A stretch of 64,000 nucleotides of DNA from Shewanella waksmanii ATCC BAA-643 (GTDB taxonomy: Bacteria; Pseudomonadota; Gammaproteobacteria; Enterobacterales; Shewanellaceae), in assembly GCF_000518805.1 (NCBI RefSeq), contig NZ_JAEH01000029.1, positions 1 through 64,000 of the forward strand, in the 5' to 3' direction. Below are positions 17,803-49,157 of this stretch, piece by piece (positions within the stretch are counted from its first letter, which is position 1; each line of letters opens with the position of its first letter). Below the pieces are notes generated by a model. That model saw only the letters and a list, made by a program, of their open reading frames with translations. It ran no database searches and had not been told where the DNA came from. Made by a program: the position numbers and the translations under genes.

Positions 17803-18414
17803 ATGTCTAGAAACTGCTGTGATGCTTGCTTATTTCCGCTTAATGCATGTATATGTGACGCCATTCGTCCGCTCAATCATCAGCAAGAATTGATTGTAAT
17901 GCAGCGCCCTAGTGAGGTGGGTCATGCCAAAAACAGTGTGCGGCTGATGCAGTTGGTACTGAGCAACTTAAAAGTGTTTGTGGGTGAGCAGAGTGCAGAT
18001 TTTGCCGCGTTACAACACTACTTAAACCAGTGCGGTAAACCGGTGTTTTTGATTTACCCCAGTGATGACAGCAAAGAGATAGGGCAAGCTGCAGTGCCGA
18101 GCAATGCAGTATTTATTCTACTTGATGGTACCTGGCGTAAGGCCTACAAATTATTGCAACTGAACCCCTGGTTGAGCCAGTATCGGGCATTGCATTTTGA
18201 TTTAGCGTCAGCGTCTAACTACACCATTCGTAAATCCAGTCGCAGTGATAGTCTATCCACGTTAGAGGCAGCCGCGATGACGTTAAAACAGCTGGACAAT
18301 AATCTCGATGTGACACCGCTCACCGACGCTTTGGCTGCAATGGTTAATAGGCGTTTAGCGGCAATGCCTGCAGAGGTGCGTCAACGTTACCGCAAATCAA
18401 CTGACACAGAATGA
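17803..18414 (+). CDS. DTW-domain tRNA-uridine aminocarboxypropyltransferase-like protein
   Basis: 203 residues with an N-terminal Cys cluster (CCDACLFPLNACICD) and the DTW-domain core LLDGTWRKAYKL followed by YTIRKSSRSDSLSTLEAAA. DTW proteins such as E. coli TapT (YfiP) use S-adenosylmethionine to add the 3-amino-3-carboxypropyl group to uridine in tRNA. The length and both motifs fit this family. The exact tRNA position modified in this organism is not shown by the sequence. Confidence 0.85.
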   Translation: MSRNCCDACLFPLNACICDAIRPLNHQQELIVMQRPSEVGHAKNSVRLMQLVLSNLKVFVGEQSADFAALQHYLNQCGKPVFLIYPSDDSKEIGQAAVPSNAVFILLDGTWRKAYKLLQLNPWLSQYRALHFDLASASNYTIRKSSRSDSLSTLEAAAMTLKQLDNNLDVTPLTDALAAMVNRRLAAMPAEVRQRYRKSTDTE

Positions 18415-37409: not shown

Positions 37410-39341
37410 CTAAGTCTTAGCCGGCGTTAGGTGAAATTTATTGCAATCAGTGCTTAGCTGATTAGTCAGCTCACTAAGCTGAGCGGCGCCCTGCGCCACT
37501 TGCTGTGAGATACTGGCAACTTGACCGCTGGCATCTTCTATTTGTGCCAAACTTCGCGTGAGTTCATCGGTGGCCTGAGCTTGTTCATGACAGCCAGAGG
37601 CAATCGATGCCAAATGTGAAGTGGCTTGATCCATTTGTGCCACAATCCCCTCAAATGCCAGCTCGGTTTGTGCGGCAATATCGTTGCCGTCGGCCATCTG
37701 CGTGATGGATGCGTTAACCAATAGCGTGGTTTTTGAGGCTGCGGTAGCCGTGCGATTAGCAAGCTGCCGAACTTCATCGGCAACGACGGCAAACCCTCGT
37801 CCATGTTCGCCCGCTCGGGCCGCTTCAATGGCCGCGTTCAGTGCAATTAAGTTAGTTTGATCGGCAATATTGGTGATTTCACTCATGATATGGGCAATCT
37901 CATCGCCAGAAGTTCGCATCTGCGCTAAGGCTAAAGATAGCTGCTGCATCTGCTGATGGCTCTGGCTGGCCTGCGTTAAACTGTGTTGACCTTGTACATT
38001 GATATCGGTTGAAGCCGTGGCGGTGATTTTAGTCTGGCTATCAATTTCATGTAGTGCAGAGCTCATGGCGGTGACCAAATCGAGCTGTTCGGTTGCACCT
38101 TGAGCCAGATCTAGACTGCCGTTGTTAAGATCATGACTATTCTGTTCAATGGCTTGGGTACACTGCTGCACCGAGCGTACTAGGTGGGACAAATTCAGCA
38201 GCATTTTTTGTAGCGCTAGCCCCAGTGCGTCTCGCTCGCCGGTCAATTGCACCTCAAAGGCGAGATCGCCGTGGGCAATTTTCTCTGCCGTGGCAATCTG
38301 TTGCTTTTGTACTTGCACCAAATGCGCCACCGCATGGGCAATATGCCCAAGCTCATCTTGGCGTTGCAATAGCTTGTGCCAAGCTGTTTGATTTAGCTGA
38401 CTGAGTTGAATATCCCCTTCTGCAAGGTGAGCCACGGCGCTGGAAACGGTACTCAAACCTCGGGTGACGACATTCACCAGTTTAACAATTAGCAGTGCCA
38501 CAATGATGATGGCAACAGCAGCCACAGCCGAGCTAACAAGTATCAACTTACGCTCATTGGCAATTAACACTTGGGTATCTACGGCGCTGATAATTGACCA
38601 GCCACTAGTTGGCTCTTTGACCACCCAGCCGCGATAGTGAAGTTGTGCTTGGTTAAACTGCACCGTTTGTTCAGACAAATGACATAAGCTATCTAAATCA
38701 AGTTGTTCGTTCGCTAGCGTTGGCTGCGGGTGTGCGACCAATTGGCAACGACTCGACAGAACAAAACTGCTGCTATGGGGCTGAGTTTGGCTCAAGTCGA
38801 CATACTCGTTGTAAAAATTGTCCAGTGGTAGGCTCATGAATAAGATATTGTCGCGGGAAACCTGCTGGGCAAAAGTGACCAATAACTTGCCATCAACTCG
38901 GCTATGCACAGGTTCAGAAATAACCAGTTGCTTACTGTTCAGCGCCTGCGTGACATAGGGCATGGTTTGATAGTTTTTACCGATACGTTGTGGATTACTG
39001 GCGGCAATCACCTGTTGTTGACTGTCCAATAACGCGATGTTTCTGGCGCCATTGTGTTGGGCTGTGGCCGCTAAGTGAGCCGATAGCTTGGTCTGCCAAG
39101 CCTGATCTTTTGTCGCTAAGTGCACAAATGGACTCTCTGCCAGTGCAGCTAAGGTGTGCTGGTGGTTGTTCACCCAACTACTGATATTGTCACGGAGCAA
39201 TGCTGCACTGGTTTGCATGGCATTCGATGATGCCGTTTGCATCATAGTCAAACTTAGGCTGATACACACATAGGCAATGCTAACGAGTGCCAATGTGACT
39301 AAGGGGATCAGTAAGGCATTAAATCGATGACGTAGCTTCAT
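37410..39341 (-). CDS. Methyl-accepting chemotaxis protein with a Cache-type sensor
   Basis: 643 residues: TM1 (about 8-32), a periplasmic double-Cache-like domain (about 35-270; [17 protein letters not shown] and [11 protein letters not shown] are typical), TM2 (about 275-297), HAMP, and a signalling domain with the MCP hairpin [38 protein letters not shown]. Cache domains bind small solutes such as amino or organic acids. Its position beside the DMSP cluster makes a cluster metabolite a conceivable ligand, but this is only proximity. Confidence 0.9.
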
Positions 39342-39379: not shown

Positions 39380-40423
39380 CTAAATGACCACTTGCTTAAA
39401 CAGGTTTTGGATGATGAACAAGCCAATAAAGCAGGCGATTGCAGACATAATTGGTGTGATGACCCAACCGATTAGAATCCGCCCCAATACTCGCCACTGT
39501 ACCGGTAACTTTTTCAATAATGCGATACCAACCACCGCGCCAATCACCGCCTGTGAACTCGATACCGGCACCAGCGGGATTGCGGGTAAACCTAAGCTAA
39601 CAAAGGCATTGGATAGGCTTTGAGATGAGAAGATAAACAGCACAATTGAATGAGCCATCACTACCACCCAAGCGGTAACAGGCGTCATGGCGATGAGGTT
39701 ATCGCCTACGGTTAACATCACTTTTTTAGAGTAGGTAAATACGCCGATGCTAATGGCGACGGCGCCAATGAAGAACAGCTGCATGGCCGGGGTTAATGTC
39801 AGCCCAAACAGATCCATTGGATCAATGGGAGCGCTGAGTACAAATACACCCATTACGTTGGCAATATTATTAGCCCCCAAACTATAAGAACCAAACGCAC
39901 CCGCAAGGATTAATCCAATGCGGGTCCATTTATCCAGTTGGAACAACCCTGGGCGCAATCGCGCGATACTGGTACTCACAAGCTTGAACAGTAACACCGC
40001 GGTAATGGCCGCTAAAATAGGGCAGAGCACCCAAGTGCTGAGGATTTTAGTCAGCACTTCTGAATCTGTAGGCATACCGCTAAACAGGTTCCAACCGATG
40101 ATAGCGCCCACAATCGCTTGGCCTGTAGAGACCGGCAGGCCGGATTTAGTCATAAAATAAACCGTGGTAGCGGCAGATAATGCCACGGTAAATGCACCGC
40201 CTATGGCAGAGACTTTTCCTAGCGCGCCTAAGGTGTGTGATGCCCCAGCGCCACTGATCACCGCGCCTAGAATCACCATAACCGAACAGATGAGGGCCGC
40301 GGTGGAAAACTTGACCATTTTCGAACCTACAGCGGTACCGAAAACGTTAGCAGCGTCATTCGCGCCTAGTGACCAGCCGAGAAATAAGCCGCTAGAGAGA
40401 AAGACCCAAATCGCAATATCCAT
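39380..40423 (-). CDS. PiT-family inorganic phosphate transporter
   Basis: 347 residues with about ten membrane helices and the duplicated PiT signature: [22 protein letters not shown] near the N terminus and [18 protein letters not shown] in the second half. It moves inorganic phosphate (usually as a metal-phosphate complex) with protons or sodium. It follows a DUF47 gene after 11 bases, the common PiT-DUF47 operon. Shorter than E. coli PitA (499) but normal for this subgroup. Confidence 0.92.
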
Positions 40424-40434
40424 ATTGTCGCCCC

Positions 40435-41103
40435 TTACTGCACACGTTTGAGGGTGAAGATGGCAATGCGGTCACTGATATCTTCGGCCAAGTTGGCGAC
40501 TTGGTCTAAGCGGTCGCAAAAATAGCGCAGTTGGATTTTATTCACGAGTGGCATGTCGGTATCGAATAACATCACTTTGGTGCGGGTGCACTGCTTGTCG
40601 GCTTGACTCTCAAAAGCGATGACTTTGGTGTGATACTCCTGTACTCGCTGCAAGTCGGTAAAGAAACTTTTGGCGCACAGCAATGTATGGTCGATGGTTG
40701 CACCAACAATATCGAGTAAAGCCAGCAGCTCTTGGCCTACAGGCTGGGGAATCAATGGTTGCTCAATTTTAAGATGCAGGCCAATAGTCTCTTGGCGGTT
40801 GATTAATCGATCGGTCAGATCGATAAGTGAAGCCACGTCGGAGCGTAGATCGGGGATCAAGGTTTTTCGATACAGGGTTTGTTCGATTTCGCGTTTAAGT
40901 AAATCCGCTTGATGTTCAATCTCTTGCAGTTCTTTTAGTGCTTGGGCAAAGACGTCGCTTTGTGGGCCGTAGTTTAAGTAGCTAGTCCACATTTCTACCG
41001 ATTTATGATGCGATAAAGTGACTTGATCTAAGAACAGATAGACCTTGGTTTCGGTCGATTGGGACTGAGAAAGCAGCGTAGTGAGCCGAGAAAAGCCAAA
41101 CAT
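40435..41103 (-). CDS. DUF47 / PhoU-like protein partnered with the PiT transporter
   Basis: 222-residue helical protein; acidic ExxxD patterns (LKELQEIEHQADLLKREIE; FESQADKQCTR) are those of the DUF47/PhoU-like fold. DUF47 proteins are nearly always next to PiT transporters and are thought to modulate them. It is the first gene of a pair transcribed leftward into the PiT gene. Confidence 0.88.
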   Translation of the reverse strand: MFGFSRLTTLLSQSQSTETKVYLFLDQVTLSHHKSVEMWTSYLNYGPQSDVFAQALKELQEIEHQADLLKREIEQTLYRKTLIPDLRSDVASLIDLTDRLINRQETIGLHLKIEQPLIPQPVGQELLALLDIVGATIDHTLLCAKSFFTDLQRVQEYHTKVIAFESQADKQCTRTKVMLFDTDMPLVNKIQLRYFCDRLDQVANLAEDISDRIAIFTLKRVQ

Positions 41104-41199
41104 GGCATCTCCTTGTCGTGAGGGAAGTAGGGATTTTTTGAGGTGGCAGGCTCGCTAGACGGGAGCAGGGACTAGCGAGCCTGCAGTGGTCGCGCAGTA

Positions 41200-42024
41200 C
41201 TACTTGAAGGCGTTACTCATTTCAAACGTCGCTTTAGTTTTAGAGCCTTGATGGCCCTGTCCTAGATTGACGGCGTTGACCTGTTCAAATAAATGCTCAT
41301 AAGCTTGTTCGAGTCTGTCCTGATTCTTTAAGCTGCCTTTAAATGAAAACTCAGTAAACGTGATACGCGGTTGTCGGTAGTAGGGCGTCCAAAGTTGAAA
41401 GTCTATTTCCAAATCATCAAAGCGACGATCCTTAAGTGCACCCTCCCAACCATGGGTACGCATAACAATGGTTTGTGCAAGATCTTGTTGGTTGGCTTGA
41501 TAGATATCACCGACGATAGACCAAATTGCTTTATCTTTTTTCAAGATATTAAACACTTGCTCGTAATCAACATCTTTGACGTTAATATCGCCAGGTGAGT
41601 AGGGAATATCGTAGCTGACGCTGTAAGCCGCCTTACCATTGGTAAAATCGATTTCCGCTTTACGGTACTGGCTCACATCACCAAAACCTTGCGGGTCTTC
41701 AGCGCGGAGTTTGACGGTAATTTTGCTCTTGCGCGGTTTAGTGACATGCTCTCTCACTCGAATATTGATATCTTTGGCTTTAAAAGCGCGGTTAGGAGTA
41801 TCAATATAAGTCACTAATTTAACCGAGATATCATCGTCAAACGTGATGAAGTCAAAAGCTTGTTTGAAGTCGTTACTGAGCTTATTCGCGCCATAGGGTA
41901 ATGTTTTACCTACCCCAGTATTGACGTGATATTCCAACGAAGTAAATTGCTCTGGTGATAACACATAAGCGCTTGAACTTAGGCATAAATTGACCAGACC
42001 GATTAGAAATAGATTGTTTCTCAT
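41200..42024 (-). CDS. Exported CYTH-like (triphosphate-tunnel-fold-like) protein
   Basis: 274 residues with a signal peptide (about 1-18, SSSA). The mature part has a pattern recalling CYTH/triphosphate-tunnel enzymes: KLVTYIDTPNRAFKAKDINIRVRE (tYxDTpxxxLxxxxxxlRiR) followed by KITVKLRAED (the T(L/V)K strand) and alternating acidic strands (AEIDF; DDLEIDFQL). The N-terminal ExExK signature is not evident (SLEYHV instead). A periplasmic CYTH protein would be unusual. It sits between a phosphate porin and the PiT-DUF47 pair, pointing to phosphate or polyphosphate. The fold call is by eye. Confidence 0.55.
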   Translation of the reverse strand: MRNNLFLIGLVNLCLSSSAYVLSPEQFTSLEYHVNTGVGKTLPYGANKLSNDFKQAFDFITFDDDISVKLVTYIDTPNRAFKAKDINIRVREHVTKPRKSKITVKLRAEDPQGFGDVSQYRKAEIDFTNGKAAYSVSYDIPYSPGDINVKDVDYEQVFNILKKDKAIWSIVGDIYQANQQDLAQTIVMRTHGWEGALKDRRFDDLEIDFQLWTPYYRQPRITFTEFSFKGSLKNQDRLEQAYEHLFEQVNAVNLGQGHQGSKTKATFEMSNAFK

Positions 42025-42038
42025 CTGCTTGGCTCCTT

Positions 42039-43406
42039 TTAGAATGCGTACTGTAAGCGGGCTTGGAATATGTTGCCGTCTTGCTCATACAACATCAGGT
42101 CGGGGTCGCTATGATGCTCGAACCCCTGTTCATAATCGGCTTTGGTATGCACGTAGTTAAACTGCGCTTTTAAGTTGTTTTCGATATACCAGTTAACGCC
42201 AATAACATAGTCGGTTTTCTTGCCGCCATAGATGTTGGCATCGGTATCATTGAAATCAGCGTAGTCGACTCGCGCGGCAATTTCCCAGGCACCATAACCA
42301 CCTTTTGATAGTGCGTTTTCAGGTTTAACCGTTTTAAAGGTGCCTTTCTTATCGCCGTAGCGCCAGCTCTCTCCTGTTAAGGTATAAACTGCTTGTGCAT
42401 AGCCACTGTTAAAGGTCGCGCTGCCCATGTTATCGCCCTTAATGTACAGATCATCGGTTTTTGCTAGCATGTATTCGGCTTGCATCAGTAAGCTACGATG
42501 TTGGTATGCCGCTTCCAAACCATAATGCTGGGTTGATTGGGTATTGAATTTACCCGTATCAATCAAACGACCCGTGGCTTTGGTATTTGGTCGAGCGCGG
42601 TAACGGGTCTCTTCCATATTGCTATTGTTTTTGGTGCACAGTGCGCTGGCGCCTATGTGCAATAGGTGGTCACTGTTGTTGATGGGGGCCATGGTAAATC
42701 GGGCATTAAATACGTCTTGCTTTTCATTGAGGTCATCATCATTCACCAAGGCTGTCACACCGTAGCCAGCGCTAAAATTATAGCCGTCGCCGTAGTACAA
42801 CCAAGAAGCACCAACCGCACGCTCAGGTGAGAAGGTATCGGTACTGGCGCGTTCCAAAAATGCTAAATGGGCTGAACTGCCTGTGGCCTCAAGGCCAAAA
42901 CCAAACTTCTGGAAACCGAGTTTAATTTCGCTGTTATCAAACCCACGGTAATTGACGTTGGCATCTTTAACTTCAACTTCTGACACGCCATCAAAATCAA
43001 ATTCCAGCGAGTATTTCCATACATTGGAGAAATACCCTTCTACCCCAAACCGAACACGGCGGAAGCTGACTTCATTAATGCCCTCTTGGTATTCCAGTTT
43101 GTTGCCGGTATAGAAAGGATCGGCGTTAACATAGTCGAGCTGAATACGCCCCGTAAACTGCATGGTTGATTGGCCATCTTTGGACATTAACTCTGGTGAC
43201 GGGTCACCGGTTTCAAATTTGACTCTATCGCTAGCGTTGGCAGCATCTTTTGCTTCTATGAGCTCAATTTCTAGCGCGTTTAGGCGCTCCTCTAGCTCAG
43301 TGATTTTATCTGCTTCAGTCGCCATCGCGGCTGATGAAAAACACAGTAGTGAGGTTGAGATTGCAACGGCAATGCGAGACCGAGAAAAACCATTTTTGTT
43401 CACCAT
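42039..43406 (-). CDS. OprO/OprP-type (phosphate-selective) porin
   Basis: 455 residues: signal peptide (cut near AMA|TEA, about residue 30), a short coiled coil (DKITELEERLNALEIELIEAKDA) typical of OprO/OprP-family trimer porins, then a 16-strand-type barrel with QFTGRIQLDYV and the GYFSNVWKYSLEFDF segment, ending FQARLQYAF. The family transports phosphate or polyphosphate in Pseudomonas. The exported CYTH-like gene follows after 14 bases, so the two are co-transcribed. No convincing Pho box was found upstream. Confidence 0.85.
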   Translation of the reverse strand: MVNKNGFSRSRIAVAISTSLLCFSSAAMATEADKITELEERLNALEIELIEAKDAANASDRVKFETGDPSPELMSKDGQSTMQFTGRIQLDYVNADPFYTGNKLEYQEGINEVSFRRVRFGVEGYFSNVWKYSLEFDFDGVSEVEVKDANVNYRGFDNSEIKLGFQKFGFGLEATGSSAHLAFLERASTDTFSPERAVGASWLYYGDGYNFSAGYGVTALVNDDDLNEKQDVFNARFTMAPINNSDHLLHIGASALCTKNNSNMEETRYRARPNTKATGRLIDTGKFNTQSTQHYGLEAAYQHRSLLMQAEYMLAKTDDLYIKGDNMGSATFNSGYAQAVYTLTGESWRYGDKKGTFKTVKPENALSKGGYGAWEIAARVDYADFNDTDANIYGGKKTDYVIGVNWYIENNLKAQFNYVHTKADYEQGFEHHSDPDLMLYEQDGNIFQARLQYAF

Positions 43407-43698
43407 AATGCATATCCTTAATATCTTATTCTAGATGTTAACGCGGTGTAAGAAATCTGCTGTTTCCTGATGAACTAATAGTAAGCAGATCGCGGTAAGA
43501 AAAACTTGATCCATGTCTATTAATTTCAACTTAATCGTACAAAATGTTTTTGTTTTATTTTTGCGAGTAATGATGGTTTTTTAGCAGTGATATAGTTCAG
43601 TATAAGTTGAGAGATTTAGTTTAAGGCGTGGGGAGGCGACGCTCAATCACAAGGGAGTTTATGCGTAATAAAAGTGAGTTGGTTAATACTGGTTTCGA

Positions 43699-45036
43699 CT
43701 ATAAGTTATTGATTTCGATCTTGTATATACCGTGAGCCCCTTTTCTGCTAGTGACGATTCGGTGCTGACTATAGGTCAAGCCATCGCCTAAATCTACGCT
43801 GATCAACAGGTGAATTGTATGGACTTTGTGTACCGTCGCTAGGCGAATGTTTTGCCCTTGCTGGTAGTGATGGTTGCTGAGGATTTTCGGCAAAGAACGC
43901 AAAGTTTTACTTAAGTTAATTGTAAGTTCATCTATAAACTTTTCTTTGCTTTTTCGTTGTTTCTCAGTGTTAAAATTGTAACGTCGTTGGTAGACCCAAT
44001 GACGACTATCCTGGGACGTCTCTTGTCCCGGGCGGCGATTTAATATCGACTGAATTTGCTTGGGTAAATGCTGTTGTGATTGGCTAAAAAAGCTCTCAGT
44101 GGTGGCAGCAATTTCTACCTGACGACTGCCTTGATAGTAGCGAGACTGGTGTTGAAAATAACGAGAAGAAAACACTTGCATTAAATATTGCCGCCCAAGC
44201 TCTTTAATTCGATCCTTGAGGATGTAGGAGATAACCAAAGAGAAAAAGAACGGTGTAGAGAAATTGCCAAATGCTTGCTGGGTGAAAAATGCCACTGCGG
44301 TTGCGAATGCCATCGCTAGCGCAGCCGCTACACCAAAAATCAGCTGCTCAGCATATTGGCCGTTTTTGAGTTTCTTACGCTTGACTTTATACGGCGTATT
44401 TATCACTTTTCGGCCGAGATGGAGCTTATTCAGTAAACGCTCTTGGCCCTCTTCACTGTCATCATGCAGCTTAAATTTATGCTGCTTTGCTAAGGCAATA
44501 TTGCGCTCGAGTAATCGGCTTAGCCTAGGCGTATCTGCTGAGTTTTGCTGGCGCAATAGTGCCAGCAGCGACTGGTGCAAATCATAGATGAGCTGGTGGC
44601 GGGCGAGTTTATATAGTCGTGCTTGACCAAGAAGTTGCTCGTTGTCATGAATTGCACAACATTGCTCGATCGCGTCATTCAGTTGTAATAGTAGTGGCTC
44701 ATCGGCACCGTTAAGTAACTGACGGATGTCGGTGACAAAGTGAGACAGTGCTAGTCGGTAGTGGCGTTGATTGGTCCGGGCTTGTGCATATGCCGTATGT
44801 TTTAAAGTGAATAGTGCACGCTGCACTGAATCCACACTGGCGGTTTCATCAAACCTAATCACTTGCTTCTGTGATAGATTTTGATAGAAGCTACTGGGGT
44901 TGGCAATGTCGCTATTTTCGGCCAATTGCGAGGGAAGAAAAAAGTGAACCTTAAGCTGGGCGCGCTTAACGTGGGCCGGAAATTCGGCGCGCACGTTAAG
45001 GTGGTACTGGTCAGCTTTAAATAGCGACACTGTCAT
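43699..45036 (-). CDS. Membrane protein of unknown function in a CYTH operon
   Basis: 445 residues: a helical, Gln/Arg/Leu-rich N-terminal part (about 1-225), two adjacent membrane segments (about 230-275; LIFGVAAALAMAFATAVAFF and FSTPFFFSLVISYIL) and a basic C-terminal domain ending in beta strands (THRIVTSRKGAHGIYKIEINN-like). Not recognised as any known family. It is encoded three bases after a CYTH enzyme gene, suggesting a membrane partner. The overall plan (CYTH module plus membrane module) is reminiscent of eukaryotic VTC polyphosphate polymerase, but there is no detectable sequence similarity that I can claim. Confidence 0.7.
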   Translation of the reverse strand: MTVSLFKADQYHLNVRAEFPAHVKRAQLKVHFFLPSQLAENSDIANPSSFYQNLSQKQVIRFDETASVDSVQRALFTLKHTAYAQARTNQRHYRLALSHFVTDIRQLLNGADEPLLLQLNDAIEQCCAIHDNEQLLGQARLYKLARHQLIYDLHQSLLALLRQQNSADTPRLSRLLERNIALAKQHKFKLHDDSEEGQERLLNKLHLGRKVINTPYKVKRKKLKNGQYAEQLIFGVAAALAMAFATAVAFFTQQAFGNFSTPFFFSLVISYILKDRIKELGRQYLMQVFSSRYFQHQSRYYQGSRQVEIAATTESFFSQSQQHLPKQIQSILNRRPGQETSQDSRHWVYQRRYNFNTEKQRKSKEKFIDELTINLSKTLRSLPKILSNHHYQQGQNIRLATVHKVHTIHLLISVDLGDGLTYSQHRIVTSRKGAHGIYKIEINNL

Positions 45037-45039
45037 GGG

Positions 45040-45513
45040 CTATTGCCAGGTGCTGTAGGGTTGCTTCATCAGCATGGAGTTATAGTAACGTGCATCTCCA
45101 GTCACTTCTTGCGCCAACCAAGAGGGTTTATTGACCACTTGATCTTCGCTAGTTAACTCCACTTCAGCGACAACTAAGCCCTGATTACTTTGATAAAACT
45201 CATCGACTTCAAATATGTGGTTAAGATGCTCAACCAGGTAACGTGTTTTATCAATGACTCCAGGCTCGCAGATGGCCAGTAATGCTTTGGCTTCTTCAAC
45301 AGGGATCTCTTGCTCCCACTCATAGCGCGAAGCACCAGATTCATTGCCGATTCCTTTGATGGTTAGGAAGCCTTTTTCACCTTTTATGCGTACTCTGACT
45401 GTGCGCTCGGGTACGCTGCTTAGGTAGCCCTGTACAATACGTACAGCGCGAGCAGCTTGATGTTTGAAGTCATCATTTTTGACTAGGTACTTACGTTCAA
45501 TCTCTTGAGCCAT
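45040..45513 (-). CDS. CYTH-domain triphosphate-tunnel enzyme
   Basis: 157 residues, the size of short TTM enzymes. The full CYTH signature is present: EIERK at residues 4-8 (ExExK), RTVRVRIKGEKGFLTIKG, YEWEQEIP, DKTRYLV, FEVDEF and AEVEL. These residues line the tunnel that binds triphosphates with Mg or Mn. Bacterial short TTMs of this type hydrolyse inorganic tripolyphosphate or related triphosphates; adenylate-cyclase activity is also known in the superfamily. It is cytoplasmic. It sits between a divergent CYTH-like gene (18 bases upstream) and a membrane protein gene (3 bases downstream). Confidence 0.88.
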   Translation of the reverse strand: MAQEIERKYLVKNDDFKHQAARAVRIVQGYLSSVPERTVRVRIKGEKGFLTIKGIGNESGASRYEWEQEIPVEEAKALLAICEPGVIDKTRYLVEHLNHIFEVDEFYQSNQGLVVAEVELTSEDQVVNKPSWLAQEVTGDARYYNSMLMKQPYSTWQ

Positions 45514-45531
45514 TGCGCTGTTCTCCTATAT

Positions 45532-46167
45532 TTAGTTTGCTAACGGCATGTTTTTCATACCGATAACACGTTTAATAGCTTGTAAATAGTTGATGTTTTC
45601 TACGCCTTCTAGCTGCACATCCTTAATGGTTTTTTGAATATCTTCTAGCTCAGTAGATTCGCTGTTAATGCTGACAATCTTGGCACCATTAACCAGCACA
45701 TTGGCCACTTCACAAATGGTGTCGTTAACCATATAGCCAAAGCGTTGCTTGTGAATTTTTACCGCTTGCAAATCAGCGTGGGCATCAATAATGGCGATGA
45801 ACTCGTCAAAGCTGTATTGGTTTTGAGTCAGTTCAGGAAGTTCGACCATAAAGGCAGGAAAAATCTCTTCAACCAGCTGGGCTCGGCTAATGGGGAACTC
45901 GGCTTTGAGCTTTGGATCCCATTGCTCAAGTCCATCTACGGTTTGTACATAAGATTTCACATCCATCTTGCCATCGCGAATTTTGGTGTTATTGAGATCA
46001 TTGGTACGCGACATGATATAGATTTCATCGCTTTCGCGATGCCAAACTTTTTCTGGAACCGGATTAGACAAGCGTGCCATACGCTCTGCTGCGGCGCTAA
46101 AGTCTTGACCAAAGGTACGAAATTCAAATCGAGGCTTAGATATTTCACCAATTTTAAGTGCTGACAT
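45532..46167 (-). CDS. Divergent CYTH-like protein, first gene of the operon
   Basis: 211-residue cytoplasmic protein. Features resembling the CYTH fold: RFEFRTF near the N terminus (in place of ExExK), DEIYIMSRTNDLNNTKIRDGKMDVKSYV (x-D-x-Y-...-N-x-K-I-R) and a later FGYMVNDTICEVANVLVNG strand pair (conserved E before the last strands). The match is weaker than for the adjacent canonical CYTH gene. If correct, two different CYTH proteins are made from one transcript. No other family is apparent. Confidence 0.55.
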   Translation of the reverse strand: MSALKIGEISKPRFEFRTFGQDFSAAAERMARLSNPVPEKVWHRESDEIYIMSRTNDLNNTKIRDGKMDVKSYVQTVDGLEQWDPKLKAEFPISRAQLVEEIFPAFMVELPELTQNQYSFDEFIAIIDAHADLQAVKIHKQRFGYMVNDTICEVANVLVNGAKIVSINSESTELEDIQKTIKDVQLEGVENINYLQAIKRVIGMKNMPLAN

Positions 46168-46488
46168 TGAGGTTTCCTTACAAGTATTTGTGTTTGTTTG
46201 GACTGCCTAAATACAGTACTGACAAAATCGTCAACAAAAATCGATCTAGATCAAGTTTTATTAAAATTAGTTTAGATCTAATCTTACATTCAATTTCATT
46301 TTTTGATGTTTACTATAAATTAAATTCAATTAAAACAGTGTTTTGATTTGATCGTTTTTACTGGTTGCTTTCTTTTGTTTATTTTTTATTTAAAACTAAA
46401 AGTATTTTTTGTTGATCTTGATCGCCTTTTTATTAAGCCAATATGGGTAAAGTTGTTTTACAGTTAATTCGCTTAGGGAATAAGAATA
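46168..46488. other. AT-rich divergent promoter region
   Basis: 321 bases between the CYTH operon (leftward) and the SLC13-type transporter (rightward). It is strongly AT-rich. It contains an FNR-like palindrome at 46241-46254 and a weaker relative (TTGAT-CTTG-ATCGC) at 46412-46425. Confidence 0.65.
46241..46254. promoter_or_regulatory. FNR/EtrA-like box in the CYTH/transporter intergenic region
   Basis: TCGAT-CTAG-ATCAA, one mismatch from TTGAT-N4-ATCAA, 74 bases before the CYTH operon start. Oxygen-linked control is possible but unproven. Confidence 0.35.
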
Positions 46489-48090
46489 ATGTCTAAAACT
46501 GAAGTGCCCCAAACCGACCCGCTCGATATGAGCCAATATCGAATGGAAACGCTCCCCGTTAGGTCAAAAAGTCGTTTCGAACTCTGGTTGGCACAAGCAG
46601 GTATTTGGATCGCTCTAGCGGTATTTGTGGGCATTCTTATGGCAGAGCCGGCGAGCTTTTTAGTTAACTTTGACCCACAAACATTAAGTCAGACCGCACT
46701 AGAGCGGTTTGAAACCGATGGTCTCGCTATGTTTAGTGCTCGCGGCACTGCAATGCTTGCCATTTTTTGTGCCGCAGTCATTTTGTGGATCACCGAGCCC
46801 ATTCCCAACTACTTAACCTCGCTGATGGTGATTATTGCGATGGTGCTAACTGGAGTATTACCGGAAAAAGTGGCTTATGCCCAGTTAGGTCATCCGATTA
46901 TGTGGCTCAATATCCTGTCATTTATTCTCGCGTCTATGTTAGTGACTTCCGGCGCTGCCAAACGCTTTGCGCTATGGTTCATTTGCCGATTTGGCACCAG
47001 TGCAACACCGATTTTTTATAGCTTTATGGTGATCAATTTAGTGCTGTCCGCGTTTATTTCAGCCACCACCGCTAAAGCCGCCATTCTGATGCCGATTTTC
47101 ATGGTGATTGCAGCGGTATATGGCGCCCGTGGCGGTGACAATAAAAACAACTTTGGCCGTAACTTAGTGCTGCAAAATTTACTGCAAATTAATCTGTGTG
47201 CCGGCGCGTTTGTGACAGGCTCTGGCGCTAACCTGTTGGCAGCGAGTTTGATTGCCGGGGCGATAGGCGGCAGCTTTTTCTTTGCAGACTGGATGATTGT
47301 CGCACTGCCGATTGTGCTGTGTATGATTGTCATTGGTTGGCTAGTGGCGACTAAAATCTTCTTTCCTTTAGCACCAGAAGAGCGCTTGCCGCAGATTGAA
47401 GGTGGCATGGAGCGTTTGCAATCTGAGCTCGATAAAATGGGCAAGGTGTCGTGGCGTGAAATCAAATCTCTAGTGATATTTGTCACCATCTTATTCTTTT
47501 GGGCTACGGATAAATACCATGGAGTCAGTGCCACAGCGATTGCCTTTATTGGCGCCATCGTTGCCCTGTGTCCACGTATTGGTGTGGTGAACTGGAATGA
47601 GGTGGATGTGCCCTGGCATTTACTGCTATTTTCAGCGGGAGCGTACACTTTAGGTGCTGGTTTTAAACAGACTGATTTACCGAATCTGGCGGTGAATTTC
47701 AGCCTGGAGTATTTTGGTTTAGATGAAAGTACACCGTTTAGCGTGTTCTACATTGCGCTTACAGGGGCGATGTTATTGTCATCACTGGTATTTCAGTCCA
47801 AGACCATGCGGACTATGTTGTTTGTGCCGATTGCTATCGGTATTGCGCAGCGATTTGATTTTCCCATTATGAGCTTGGCGTTGCCGGTGGCGTTACTCAT
47901 TGAACATGTTTACGTTTTACCGTTTAATAGTAAGCCTGCGTTGTTACTATATTCGACCGATCATTATAGTTTGAGTGATACCTTCAAGTTTGGCTTCACC
48001 ATGTTGATGATTGGTTGGGCAAGCAGTATTTTAATGGGTGAGACTTGGTTTAAATGGTTAGGTTACGCACCCAATGGTGTATTCTGGTAG
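46489..48090 (+). CDS. SLC13/DASS-type sodium:anion symporter
   Basis: 533 residues, about 11-12 membrane helices, with a 35-residue polar N terminus. DASS features: ILWITEPIPNYLTSLMVI near the first helices, SAFISATTAKAAILMPI (the SNT-like sodium/substrate loop, here SAT) and the duplicate region GSGANLLAAS and SSLVFQSKTM. Family members carry di-/tricarboxylates, sulfate or phosphate. The divergent CYTH operon and nearby phosphate genes make phosphate, or a phosphate-like oxyanion, a reasonable guess, but substrate is not determined by the sequence. Confidence 0.85.
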   Translation: MSKTEVPQTDPLDMSQYRMETLPVRSKSRFELWLAQAGIWIALAVFVGILMAEPASFLVNFDPQTLSQTALERFETDGLAMFSARGTAMLAIFCAAVILWITEPIPNYLTSLMVIIAMVLTGVLPEKVAYAQLGHPIMWLNILSFILASMLVTSGAAKRFALWFICRFGTSATPIFYSFMVINLVLSAFISATTAKAAILMPIFMVIAAVYGARGGDNKNNFGRNLVLQNLLQINLCAGAFVTGSGANLLAASLIAGAIGGSFFFADWMIVALPIVLCMIVIGWLVATKIFFPLAPEERLPQIEGGMERLQSELDKMGKVSWREIKSLVIFVTILFFWATDKYHGVSATAIAFIGAIVALCPRIGVVNWNEVDVPWHLLLFSAGAYTLGAGFKQTDLPNLAVNFSLEYFGLDESTPFSVFYIALTGAMLLSSLVFQSKTMRTMLFVPIAIGIAQRFDFPIMSLALPVALLIEHVYVLPFNSKPALLLYSTDHYSLSDTFKFGFTMLMIGWASSILMGETWFKWLGYAPNGVFW

Positions 48091-48134: not shown

Positions 48135-49157
48135 ATGAGTGCCAAGAACAATGAAATTCGCAGTAAGCTAGCGCTGTTACAGCTAGCAGAAGAGCTTGGT
48201 AGTATTAGTAAGGCCTGTGAGATAATGGGCTATAGTCGTGACAGTTATTACCGCTTTAAAAAGCAATATGCCACAGCCGGCGAGCGTGGCCTGAAAAACC
48301 TCTCGCGCAAGAAGCCGGCACTGAAAAACCGAGTGTCTGCCGAAGTAGAAGAGCAGGTGATAGAGATTGCGCTCGACTATCCCAATTATGGTCAGGCCAA
48401 AGTCGCCGAGCTACTGACTGCCCGCGGCTGCAATGTGTCGGCATCGGGAGTGAGAACAATATGGGTGCGGCATAACTTAGAGACTCGCAAAAACCGACTG
48501 TTAGCCCTTAATGCCAAGCTTAAACATGAGCAGTCTTGGTCCCCCCTAGAGCAGCAGCATCTTGAGCAACTACACAAGCTCACTCCAGATGATCCGGTAT
48601 TTGAATGCCTTTTCCCCGGCGATATCTGCGTGCAGGATACCTTTGATTTGGGGGATATAGCCCCGCTAGGTCAGCTTTATCAGCACACGTTTGTCGATGG
48701 TTATAGCCAATATGCGATTGCGGTGGTGATGACCGACAACAGTTCGGCATCGGCGGCCGAATTTTTGCAAAATATCGTTCAGCCTTGGTATCAGTCACAG
48801 CAGTTACCTATCAATAGTATCTTAACCGATAGAGGTACCGAGTTTTCGGGTAAAAAGGGCGCCGCATTTAATGACGTATTGGCGCAAAGCCAGATTAAGC
48901 ACATTCAAATGCGTGCGTATAACGGTCCGGTCGTGAATGGTTTAGCTGCGCGATTTCAGGCGTTTGCCCACAACGCATTTTTTGAACCTTTCTTAAAGGC
49001 CAATAAGGTGACGTCGTTAGCGGAGCTCAATCAACATTTTGCCCAGTGGCAGCACGATTACAACGTTAATCAGCCCCTATCTGGCAGGTATACCTTAGGT
49101 AAAACCGCTACCGAAGTGCTAGACAGCAGCCGCCACTTGATAAGTGGCGTGGAGTAA
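48135..49157 (+). CDS. IS481-like DDE transposase-derived protein lacking the catalytic Glu
   Basis: 340 residues: an N-terminal HTH (LGSISKACEIMGYSRDSYYRFKK), an HTH_Tnp-type linker, and an rve integrase core with D168 (VQDTF) and D232 (ILTDRGTEFSG). The third acidic residue, normally in NGxxERF, is replaced: NGLAARF at 268-274 has Ala272. The ORF is full length and uninterrupted. No terminal inverted repeats or target duplication are visible immediately around it. It may be a domesticated DNA-binding protein or a recently inactivated insertion. It follows the SLC13-type gene after 44 bases. Confidence 0.82.
   Translation: MSAKNNEIRSKLALLQLAEELGSISKACEIMGYSRDSYYRFKKQYATAGERGLKNLSRKKPALKNRVSAEVEEQVIEIALDYPNYGQAKVAELLTARGCNVSASGVRTIWVRHNLETRKNRLLALNAKLKHEQSWSPLEQQHLEQLHKLTPDDPVFECLFPGDICVQDTFDLGDIAPLGQLYQHTFVDGYSQYAIAVVMTDNSSASAAEFLQNIVQPWYQSQQLPINSILTDRGTEFSGKKGAAFNDVLAQSQIKHIQMRAYNGPVVNGLAARFQAFAHNAFFEPFLKANKVTSLAELNQHFAQWQHDYNVNQPLSGRYTLGKTATEVLDSSRHLISGVE

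Follow-up and report, generated by a model that had tools for sequence, protein, structure and literature searches.

A 64,000-nucleotide stretch of the genome of Shewanella waksmanii ATCC BAA-643 (NZ_JAEH01000029.1, positions 1-64,000; this whole stretch is called the window, and cassette coordinates are window positions) contains a conserved cassette of eight genes, in which known transporter, porin and CYTH families are brought together in a new and apparently undescribed combination. An earlier reading of the same DNA (the sequence-only reading) had placed eight adjoining genes here, and open reading frames (ORFs) lie at all of these positions. Its PiT, DUF47, OprO/OprP-type porin, canonical CYTH and SLC13-type assignments agree with Pfam matches, and the two-helix membrane protein that it could assign to no known family, here called MP2H, indeed lacks a Pfam family and has helices at residues 226-256 and 261-290 in an AlphaFold2 model. 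The minus-strand genes run, 5' to 3', divergent CYTH, CYTH, MP2H, OprP-type porin, exported CYTH-like, DUF47 and PiT, with intergenic gaps of 3-96 bp and a single exception of 292 bp upstream of the porin gene. The plus-strand SLC13 gene is divergent from these genes across 321 bp and is followed by an integrase-like gene (Table 1). Both the divergent-CYTH subfamily and MP2H lie outside Pfam models.

The cassette is conserved well beyond Shewanella. Among 84,980 species, represented by one genome each, 367 relatives of the divergent CYTH were found, of which the best 80 were used. Together with ten loci from Bacteroidota these gave 90 loci (designated by L numbers); the 64 with at least 6 kb of flank on both sides were counted, and 26 were dropped, including L126, which has no CYTH. 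Within 9 kb of the divergent CYTH, a canonical CYTH gene was detected in 64 of the 64 loci, SLC13 in 63, OprP in 63, DUF47 in 47, MP2H in 45, a lamin-tail lipoprotein in 40, PiT in 29, the exported CYTH in 16, an SdiA-regulated protein in 15 and a PhnD-like protein in 6; the PiT count is too low because degenerate PiT genes escape detection. These loci span Pseudomonadota and Bacteroidota and show 22 different strings of detected genes. Some of the loci are not independent: a single contig from an uncultured Pseudomonadales genome holds both L028 and L031, cassette copies separated by ~12 kb, and L039 and L040 gave identical results. An SLC13 gene within 9 kb is expected at ~1% (three PF00939 matches, including the cassette's own, in 4.97 Mb) versus 63/64 observed. 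Co-occurrence of the cassette genes exceeds chance, and the grouping across genomes to which the sequence-only reading had looked for confirmation was found in two phyla. In Bacteroidota loci, lamin-tail and SdiA-regulated/phytase-like lipoproteins occupy the place of the gamma-proteobacterial exported CYTH. The divergent CYTH is 72-88% identical to 29 cassette orthologues in a 30-row alignment, values biased upward because they come from the best 80 of the 367 relatives; more distant relatives, at ~25-39% identity, exist. With the own or centre genome counted, it is present in 2/143 genomes of the class, 7/295 of the order and 11/296 of a Bacteroidota draw, and no relative was confirmed in viral contigs.

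Table 1. Genes and candidate regulatory sites of the cassette and its immediate flank
Feature	Position	Strand	Basis and remarks
PiT-family transporter	39380..40423	-	Pfam PHO4 6e-49; both PiT motifs intact
DUF47/PhoU-like partner of PiT	40435..41103	-	Pfam PhoU_div 3e-19; near divergent CYTH in 47/64 loci
Exported CYTH-like protein	41200..42024	-	Sub-cut-off Pfam CYTH; signal-peptide-like N-terminus judged by eye
OprO/OprP-type outer-membrane porin	42039..43406	-	Pfam Porin_O_P 7e-59; PDB OprO E 7e-19
MP2H, two-helix membrane protein	43699..45036	-	No Pfam family; AlphaFold2 pLDDT 88.1; 45/64 loci
Canonical NeuTTM-like CYTH, predicted inorganic triphosphatase	45040..45513	-	Pfam CYTH 3e-15; PDB 3typ, 2fbl by profile
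Divergent CYTH	45532..46167	-	Predicted tunnel fold; RxExR for ExExK; NxE for last ExE; basic tunnel
Palindrome GATCTAGATC	46243..46252		Upstream of divergent CYTH operon; Fnr/EtrA-like
GATCTTGATC	46414..46423		Upstream of SLC13 gene; Fnr/EtrA-like; 171 bp from first site
SLC13/DASS transporter	46489..48090	+	Pfam Na_sulph_symp 7e-53; SAT + SKT replace SNT motifs
Integrase-like gene (HTH + rve)	48135..49157	+	Single copy; lacks third catalytic Glu; also accompanies cassette in 15 gamma-proteobacterial loci

The canonical CYTH scores 57 bits against the Pfam CYTH cut-off of 23.2, and its profile matches NE1496/NeuTTM in the PDB (3typ, E 1e-20; 2fbl, E 4e-20). The ExExK, RxR, TxK, ExD and ExE motifs are invariant in 29/29 rows; residues without variation are E4, E6, K8, R40, R42, T51, K53, E65, E67, K89, R91, E102, D104, E117 and E119. 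Among CYTH subfamilies, an HF motif is given as the mark of class IV adenylate cyclases and the Trp of WxRxR as that of thiamine-triphosphatases (PMC8233210). The cyclase motif HFxxxxExExK is missing from the canonical CYTH, in which only M-A-Q precedes ExExK, and Thr occupies the W position of WxRxR. The absence of both leaves triphosphatase, and the protein is predicted to be a NeuTTM-like inorganic triphosphatase.

The second tunnel protein, the divergent CYTH, has no Pfam family and no Pfam CYTH match at E<=1, and its hhalign probability of relationship to CYTH is only 0.14%; because no link to CYTH is found at the sequence level, the fold assignment is carried by the predicted structure. 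An AlphaFold2 model built from the 30-row alignment has a mean predicted local distance difference test score (pLDDT) of 84.3 and a predicted template-modelling score (pTM) of 0.78. The first Foldseek match is Arabidopsis TTM3 (E 1.6e-6, template-modelling score ~0.5, root-mean-square deviation (rmsd) 8 Å), and the 37 matches at E<=0.001 comprise CYTH/TTM-family proteins, a single RNA triphosphatase from a mimivirus and Mediator-head (Med18) entries, which have the same tunnel fold. In a second structural alignment (VIA) the model gave Z 12.5 with PH1819 (rmsd 3.6 Å over 154 residues) and Z 10.8 with E. coli YgiF; hydrolases as a group score Z 10.4-12.5, and Vtc2/Vtc4 entries Z 7.1-7.9. The divergent CYTH is thus predicted to have the eight-stranded CYTH/TTM tunnel fold.

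Residues of the divergent CYTH were assigned by hand from strand order and motif spacing, not from coordinates. By this mapping, ExExK becomes R13-x-E15-x-R17, RxR becomes K62-x-R64, TxK becomes D69-x-K71 and the beta-5 Glu becomes Lys88; K140-x-R142 is retained and the last ExE becomes N168-x-E170. RxExR and NxE are invariant across the 30 rows, so that the ExExK/ExE metal-ligand pattern of hydrolases is absent from the cassette form; ExE is retained in six distant relatives (L099, L126, L127, L128, L130 and L131). The metal ligands of YgiF are Glu4, Glu6, Glu160 and Glu162, and in the hydrolase AtTTM3 an acidic patch stands where Vtc4 has basic residues (PMC4641920). Two of the four ligand Glu positions would be lost in the divergent CYTH while its tunnel stays basic. 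Because of this loss and of the contrast between Vtc4 and AtTTM3, the divergent CYTH more probably binds or senses a polyanion than hydrolyses one fast.

The exported CYTH-like protein of the window falls below the Pfam CYTH cut-off (17.5 versus 23.2 bits). In its family, 17/18 orthologues, the window protein included, have a Pfam CYTH match with E<=1, the lowest E value being 0.0018, and RVR, TVK-type and KAE stretches are invariant. Its profile matched no PDB chain, and profile-profile comparison found no link to CYTH. A third tunnel protein is therefore graded only as likely, since the weak Pfam matches are not joined by either of these links. The up to three CYTH-fold proteins of the sequence-only reading thus become one secured by Pfam, one predicted from its model and this probable third; that reading had proposed structure prediction for all three. 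The exported CYTH-like gene is confined, among the 64 loci, to 16 with no Bacteroidota among them; it was found in 7/60 relative genomes (own genome counted in), and no plasmid copies were found. A 608-residue exported-looking paralogue is encoded at L021:17718-19541, downstream of PiT, and is also near in L022 and L024. In Crenobacter a porin is adjoined by a protein that looks exported and includes a CYTH-like stretch; this protein has a weak profile score (E 0.014 in a five-sequence search) and no Pfam match at E<=10.

The porin aligns with OprO over nearly its full length. Its Arg119 and Lys167 are Arg and Lys in 70/70 non-gap rows (72 in total) and align with the positions, presumably F62 and D114, where two deposited OprO sequences have different residues, the comparison being one of cassette porins with these OprO sequences. 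The SLC13 protein attains the DASS family score (TIGR00785, 200.8 bits against a cut-off of 198.6), and its best PDB match is plant DiT1 (E 2e-19). Its first SNT motif is replaced by SAT in 80/83 rows and the second by SKT (70) or SKN (13), so that Lys is present in 83/83 rows (L030 and L125 are one gene). In VcINDY carboxylates are coordinated by the SNT motifs, and in the exchanger LaINDY basic residues have been proposed as stand-ins for Na+ (PMC7553777). The two SNT motifs that characterize the Na+/dicarboxylate symporters of the DASS family are absent from the cassette protein; an SLC13 paralogue outside the cassette in the same genome retains SNT/SNT.

Of 51 ORFs following DUF47, not quite all of them PiT, 24 have a LuxR-type helix-turn-helix (HTH) at their C-terminal end, and 21/24 lack the PiT motif; 18 of these 21 match a profile of intact PiT, which reversed decoys do not, and three are unmatched. 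The HTH was confirmed by Pfam in the PiT homologues of L037 and L052. PiT homologues with a C-terminal LuxR-type HTH, most of them degenerate, are seen in Bacteroidota loci including L037, L039, L052, L064 and L069. These sequences suggest a transporter converted to a membrane-bound regulator.

In the MP2H model, the two long membrane-type helices form a hairpin, flanked by an alpha/beta part on its N-terminal side and a beta part on its C-terminal side. The best Foldseek match has an E value of only 0.021, and VIA rows mostly cover helical residues 62-204 against common bundles; because the matches are weak or restricted in this way, MP2H is neither given a fold nor called a new one. Because MP2H also has relatives elsewhere than in the cassette, including one in this genome, it is linked to the tunnel proteins by neighbourhood only. 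An obligate pairing of MP2H with the divergent CYTH is not supported, since this genome and two further ones have MP2H genes that lack a divergent CYTH close by. A second MP2H gene of the same genome lies away from the cassette at L152:8335-9726, near glycolysis genes as judged by eye. At the S. frigidimarina locus (L032) MP2H was not seen, whereas S. colwelliana and S. electrodiphila (L019 and L027) have the complete set of cassette genes.

A reduced form of the cassette is found on a Citrobacter freundii plasmid (L155:6433-10718), where CYTH, divergent CYTH, SLC13 and MP2H lie in a row and the SLC13 carries the same SAT/SKT motifs. The porin, PiT, DUF47 and exported CYTH are absent from 14.6 kb around it. 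Because this plasmid holds just these four cassette genes, it suggests that they form the core. A LysR regulator is also near. Plasmid copies of the divergent CYTH number two, both distant. L100 has the divergent CYTH and MP2H together without the remaining cassette genes. A relative of the divergent CYTH is fused to Ppx/GppA at L099:8551-10185 (Pfam) and adjacent to Ppx/GppA at L126:211-1825, and a 497-residue protein of a Cupriavidus plasmid (L156:6986-8479) resembles the same fusion in sequence. In another distant relative, L101:7881-9134, the fusion partner is a GPP34 (Golgi phosphoprotein 3) domain.

The divergent intergenic region holds two GATCTNGATC sites (Table 1). GATCNNGATC pairs 170-173 bp apart occur at this place in 14/20 loci scanned, and in 13 aligned loci the GATC halves of the sites do not vary. 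The window has two copies of TGATCTNGATC versus 0.12 expected, and TTGATCTNGATC has eight matches in the genome (one palindrome counted on both strands) versus one for a reversed control. Of its five places outside the cassette, three stand before cox, nap and cbb3 oxidase genes, as judged by eye, and two are not respiratory-looking. In S. oneidensis, GTTGATCTAGATCAAT and TGTGATCTAGATCGGT are among the predicted EtrA (Fnr) sites (PMC3078092). The Shewanella cassette is thus probably under redox control, as its Fnr/EtrA-like sites suggest. A gene for a PhnD-like binding protein is divergently placed in 6/64 loci; at L128 it is accompanied by genes for a histidine kinase and an NtrC-type regulator (Pfam; the latter two for L128 only).

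Two genes flank the cassette. In the integrase-like protein, the third Glu of what we take to be the catalytic motif is absent in 16/16 rows, and the gene adjoins SLC13 in the window and in 14/15 other loci; it is a possible domesticated regulator. A methyl-accepting chemotaxis protein gene (37410-39341) lies directly downstream of PiT, with relatives likewise placed in L019, L020 and L023, and its product might sense the same ligand as the cassette. An anti-phage defence system was considered and rejected: PADLOC, run on nine proteins at E<=0.01, gave only Csn2 on DUF47 (E 0.0086), judged a chance match.

We propose, with about an even chance of being right, that the cassette genes act as one system that takes up a phosphorus oxyanion, hydrolyses it in the cytosol and senses it, the most probable substrate being condensed phosphate (tripolyphosphate or short polyphosphate). 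What the analysis establishes is the cassette with its conservation, a predicted tunnel fold and the altered residues; the complete (poly)phosphate route that the sequence-only reading suggested remains a proposal. The OprP-type porin would let the anion through the outer membrane, and the exported CYTH of Pseudomonadota, or the lamin-tail and SdiA-regulated lipoproteins of Bacteroidota, would bind or trim it in the periplasm. To judge from its motifs, the SKT-type SLC13 could carry the short polyanion over the inner membrane, perhaps as an exchanger, and the NeuTTM-like CYTH, whose motifs are intact, would split triphosphate into pyrophosphate (PPi) and inorganic phosphate (Pi). The divergent CYTH would bind polyanion without fast hydrolysis and, with MP2H, may gate the transporter or report its state; PiT and DUF47 would deal with the released Pi. 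This proposal is supported by the presence of CYTH, SLC13 and OprP in nearly every locus together with the plasmid core that keeps the SAT/SKT motifs, by the phosphorus-linked families (OprO/P, PiT with DUF47, NeuTTM-like CYTH and PhnD-like), the first three of which give substance to the phosphorus theme of the sequence-only reading, by the Ppx/GppA fusions and neighbours of divergent CYTH relatives, by basic residues in the porin (70/70) and the SLC13 protein (83/83), and by the predicted tunnel fold of the divergent CYTH.

Several observations weigh against the condensed-phosphate proposal. No classic Pho box was found near the cassette, the sole match in the window lying at 18065 with three mismatches where 5.5 would be expected by chance. 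Against NCBIfam models the PiT protein scores higher as a sulfate permease (79.6 bits) than as PitA (17.5 bits), both far below the cut-off. The Citrobacter core lacks porin and PiT and is near a tricarboxylate-type permease, and at the distant-relative loci L099, L100 and L101, outside the 90, and L126, absent from the 64-locus count, neither CYTH nor SLC13 adjoins the divergent CYTH. The Ppx/GppA family also includes (p)ppGpp phosphatases. PPK1 is present in 12/20 genomes with the divergent CYTH versus 14/15 without, and in Shewanella in 3/6 genomes with the exported CYTH versus 10/29 without; dependence of the cassette on PPK1 is not supported, neither comparison giving a positive link. A stronger version of the proposal, in our view unlikely, sees in the four-gene core a transporter complex of a new class. 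This complex would import condensed phosphate and hand it to two cytosolic tunnel proteins, one cutting and one sensing, would serve mainly without oxygen and would possibly also yield energy via phosphate release.

The alternative that survives best, which we consider somewhat improbable, is that plain phosphate or another oxyanion (arsenate, sulfate or phosphonate) is transported and that the two tunnel proteins have a regulatory part, responding to polyphosphate or nucleotide levels and setting transporter activity via MP2H. A divergent CYTH that retains basic residues and loses acidic ligands would suit such a role, as would the missing positive link to PPK1, and the PhnD-like, kinase and NtrC-type genes of L128 resemble the arsenic-sensing AioXSR system (PMC5908839); the full set of hydrolase motifs in the partner CYTH, however, is unexpected for a pure sensor, and the porin is of the Pi/PPi type. 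Much less probable is a nucleotide-signal module, in which the tunnel proteins control anion uptake by forming or degrading cAMP or (p)ppGpp. Class IV adenylate cyclases share the fold and the Ppx/GppA neighbours and fusions could indicate (p)ppGpp, but the canonical CYTH retains the RxR arginines and lacks the HF motif described as required for such cyclases (PMC8233210). We hold it equally doubtful that the divergent CYTH and MP2H form a bacterial VTC-like machine that synthesises polyphosphate or threads it through the membrane, a matter of export or synthesis and not of uptake. The MP2H membrane hairpin and, by the hand mapping, RxExR and Lys88 would accord with it, basic residues standing at the acidic-patch positions as described for Vtc4 (PMC4641920), whereas the VTC tunnels align less well than hydrolases, the cassette form has Asn at the position that maps to the site-1 Glu, and Pfam finds no VTC or SPX domains in window proteins. 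That the genes are unrelated and neighbours by accident is hardly credible: PiT, MP2H and CYTH relatives do occur outside the cassette, but the near-constant CYTH, SLC13 and OprP genes recur in two phyla among 22 different strings of detected genes.

Microbial polyphosphate metabolism has been considered confined to intracellular cycling (PMC13318637). If the condensed-phosphate proposal is true, bacteria would possess a dedicated import route for condensed phosphate. The cassette, which is conserved across two phyla and also found on a plasmid, unites a tunnel-protein subfamily and a membrane family outside Pfam with an SLC13 protein of altered substrate motifs; with such a unit, what CYTH proteins do in bacteria can be tested in a genetic system. 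The sequence-only reading knew of no described system with this set, and none appears in the open-licence literature among the matches listed, which is weak evidence, most subscription papers being outside that scope; the main text of an arsenic-island paper (PMC3834237) has no OprP, porin, CYTH or Pit.

Among known systems, the VTC polyphosphate polymerase complex likewise has a tunnel protein with basic residues in place of an acidic patch (by the hand mapping) beside a membrane protein, but the window proteins have no VTC/SPX domains and the divergent CYTH scores lower to it than to hydrolases. The three-component AioXSR sensing system recalls the PhnD-like, kinase and NtrC-type genes beside the L128 cassette (PMC5908839); it senses arsenic, whereas at L128 the likeness is one of gene arrangement. 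PiT and DUF47 are both present and adjoining in the window, as in other PiT-DUF47 pairs, whereas in many Bacteroidota loci the PiT is degenerate and has a LuxR-type HTH fused to it. The canonical CYTH aligns over nearly its whole length with NeuTTM/NE1496 (3TYP, 2FBL), motif residues included; in a comparison of the proteins themselves, the cassette differs in that its CYTH is accompanied by another, divergent tunnel protein and by a set of transporters. The porin belongs to the family of Pseudomonas aeruginosa OprO/OprP and differs in having Arg and Lys at the positions that vary between the two deposited OprO sequences. The transporter, finally, belongs with VcINDY, LaINDY and plant DiT1 in the DASS/SLC13 family, but has SAT and SK[T/N] for SNT in nearly all rows.

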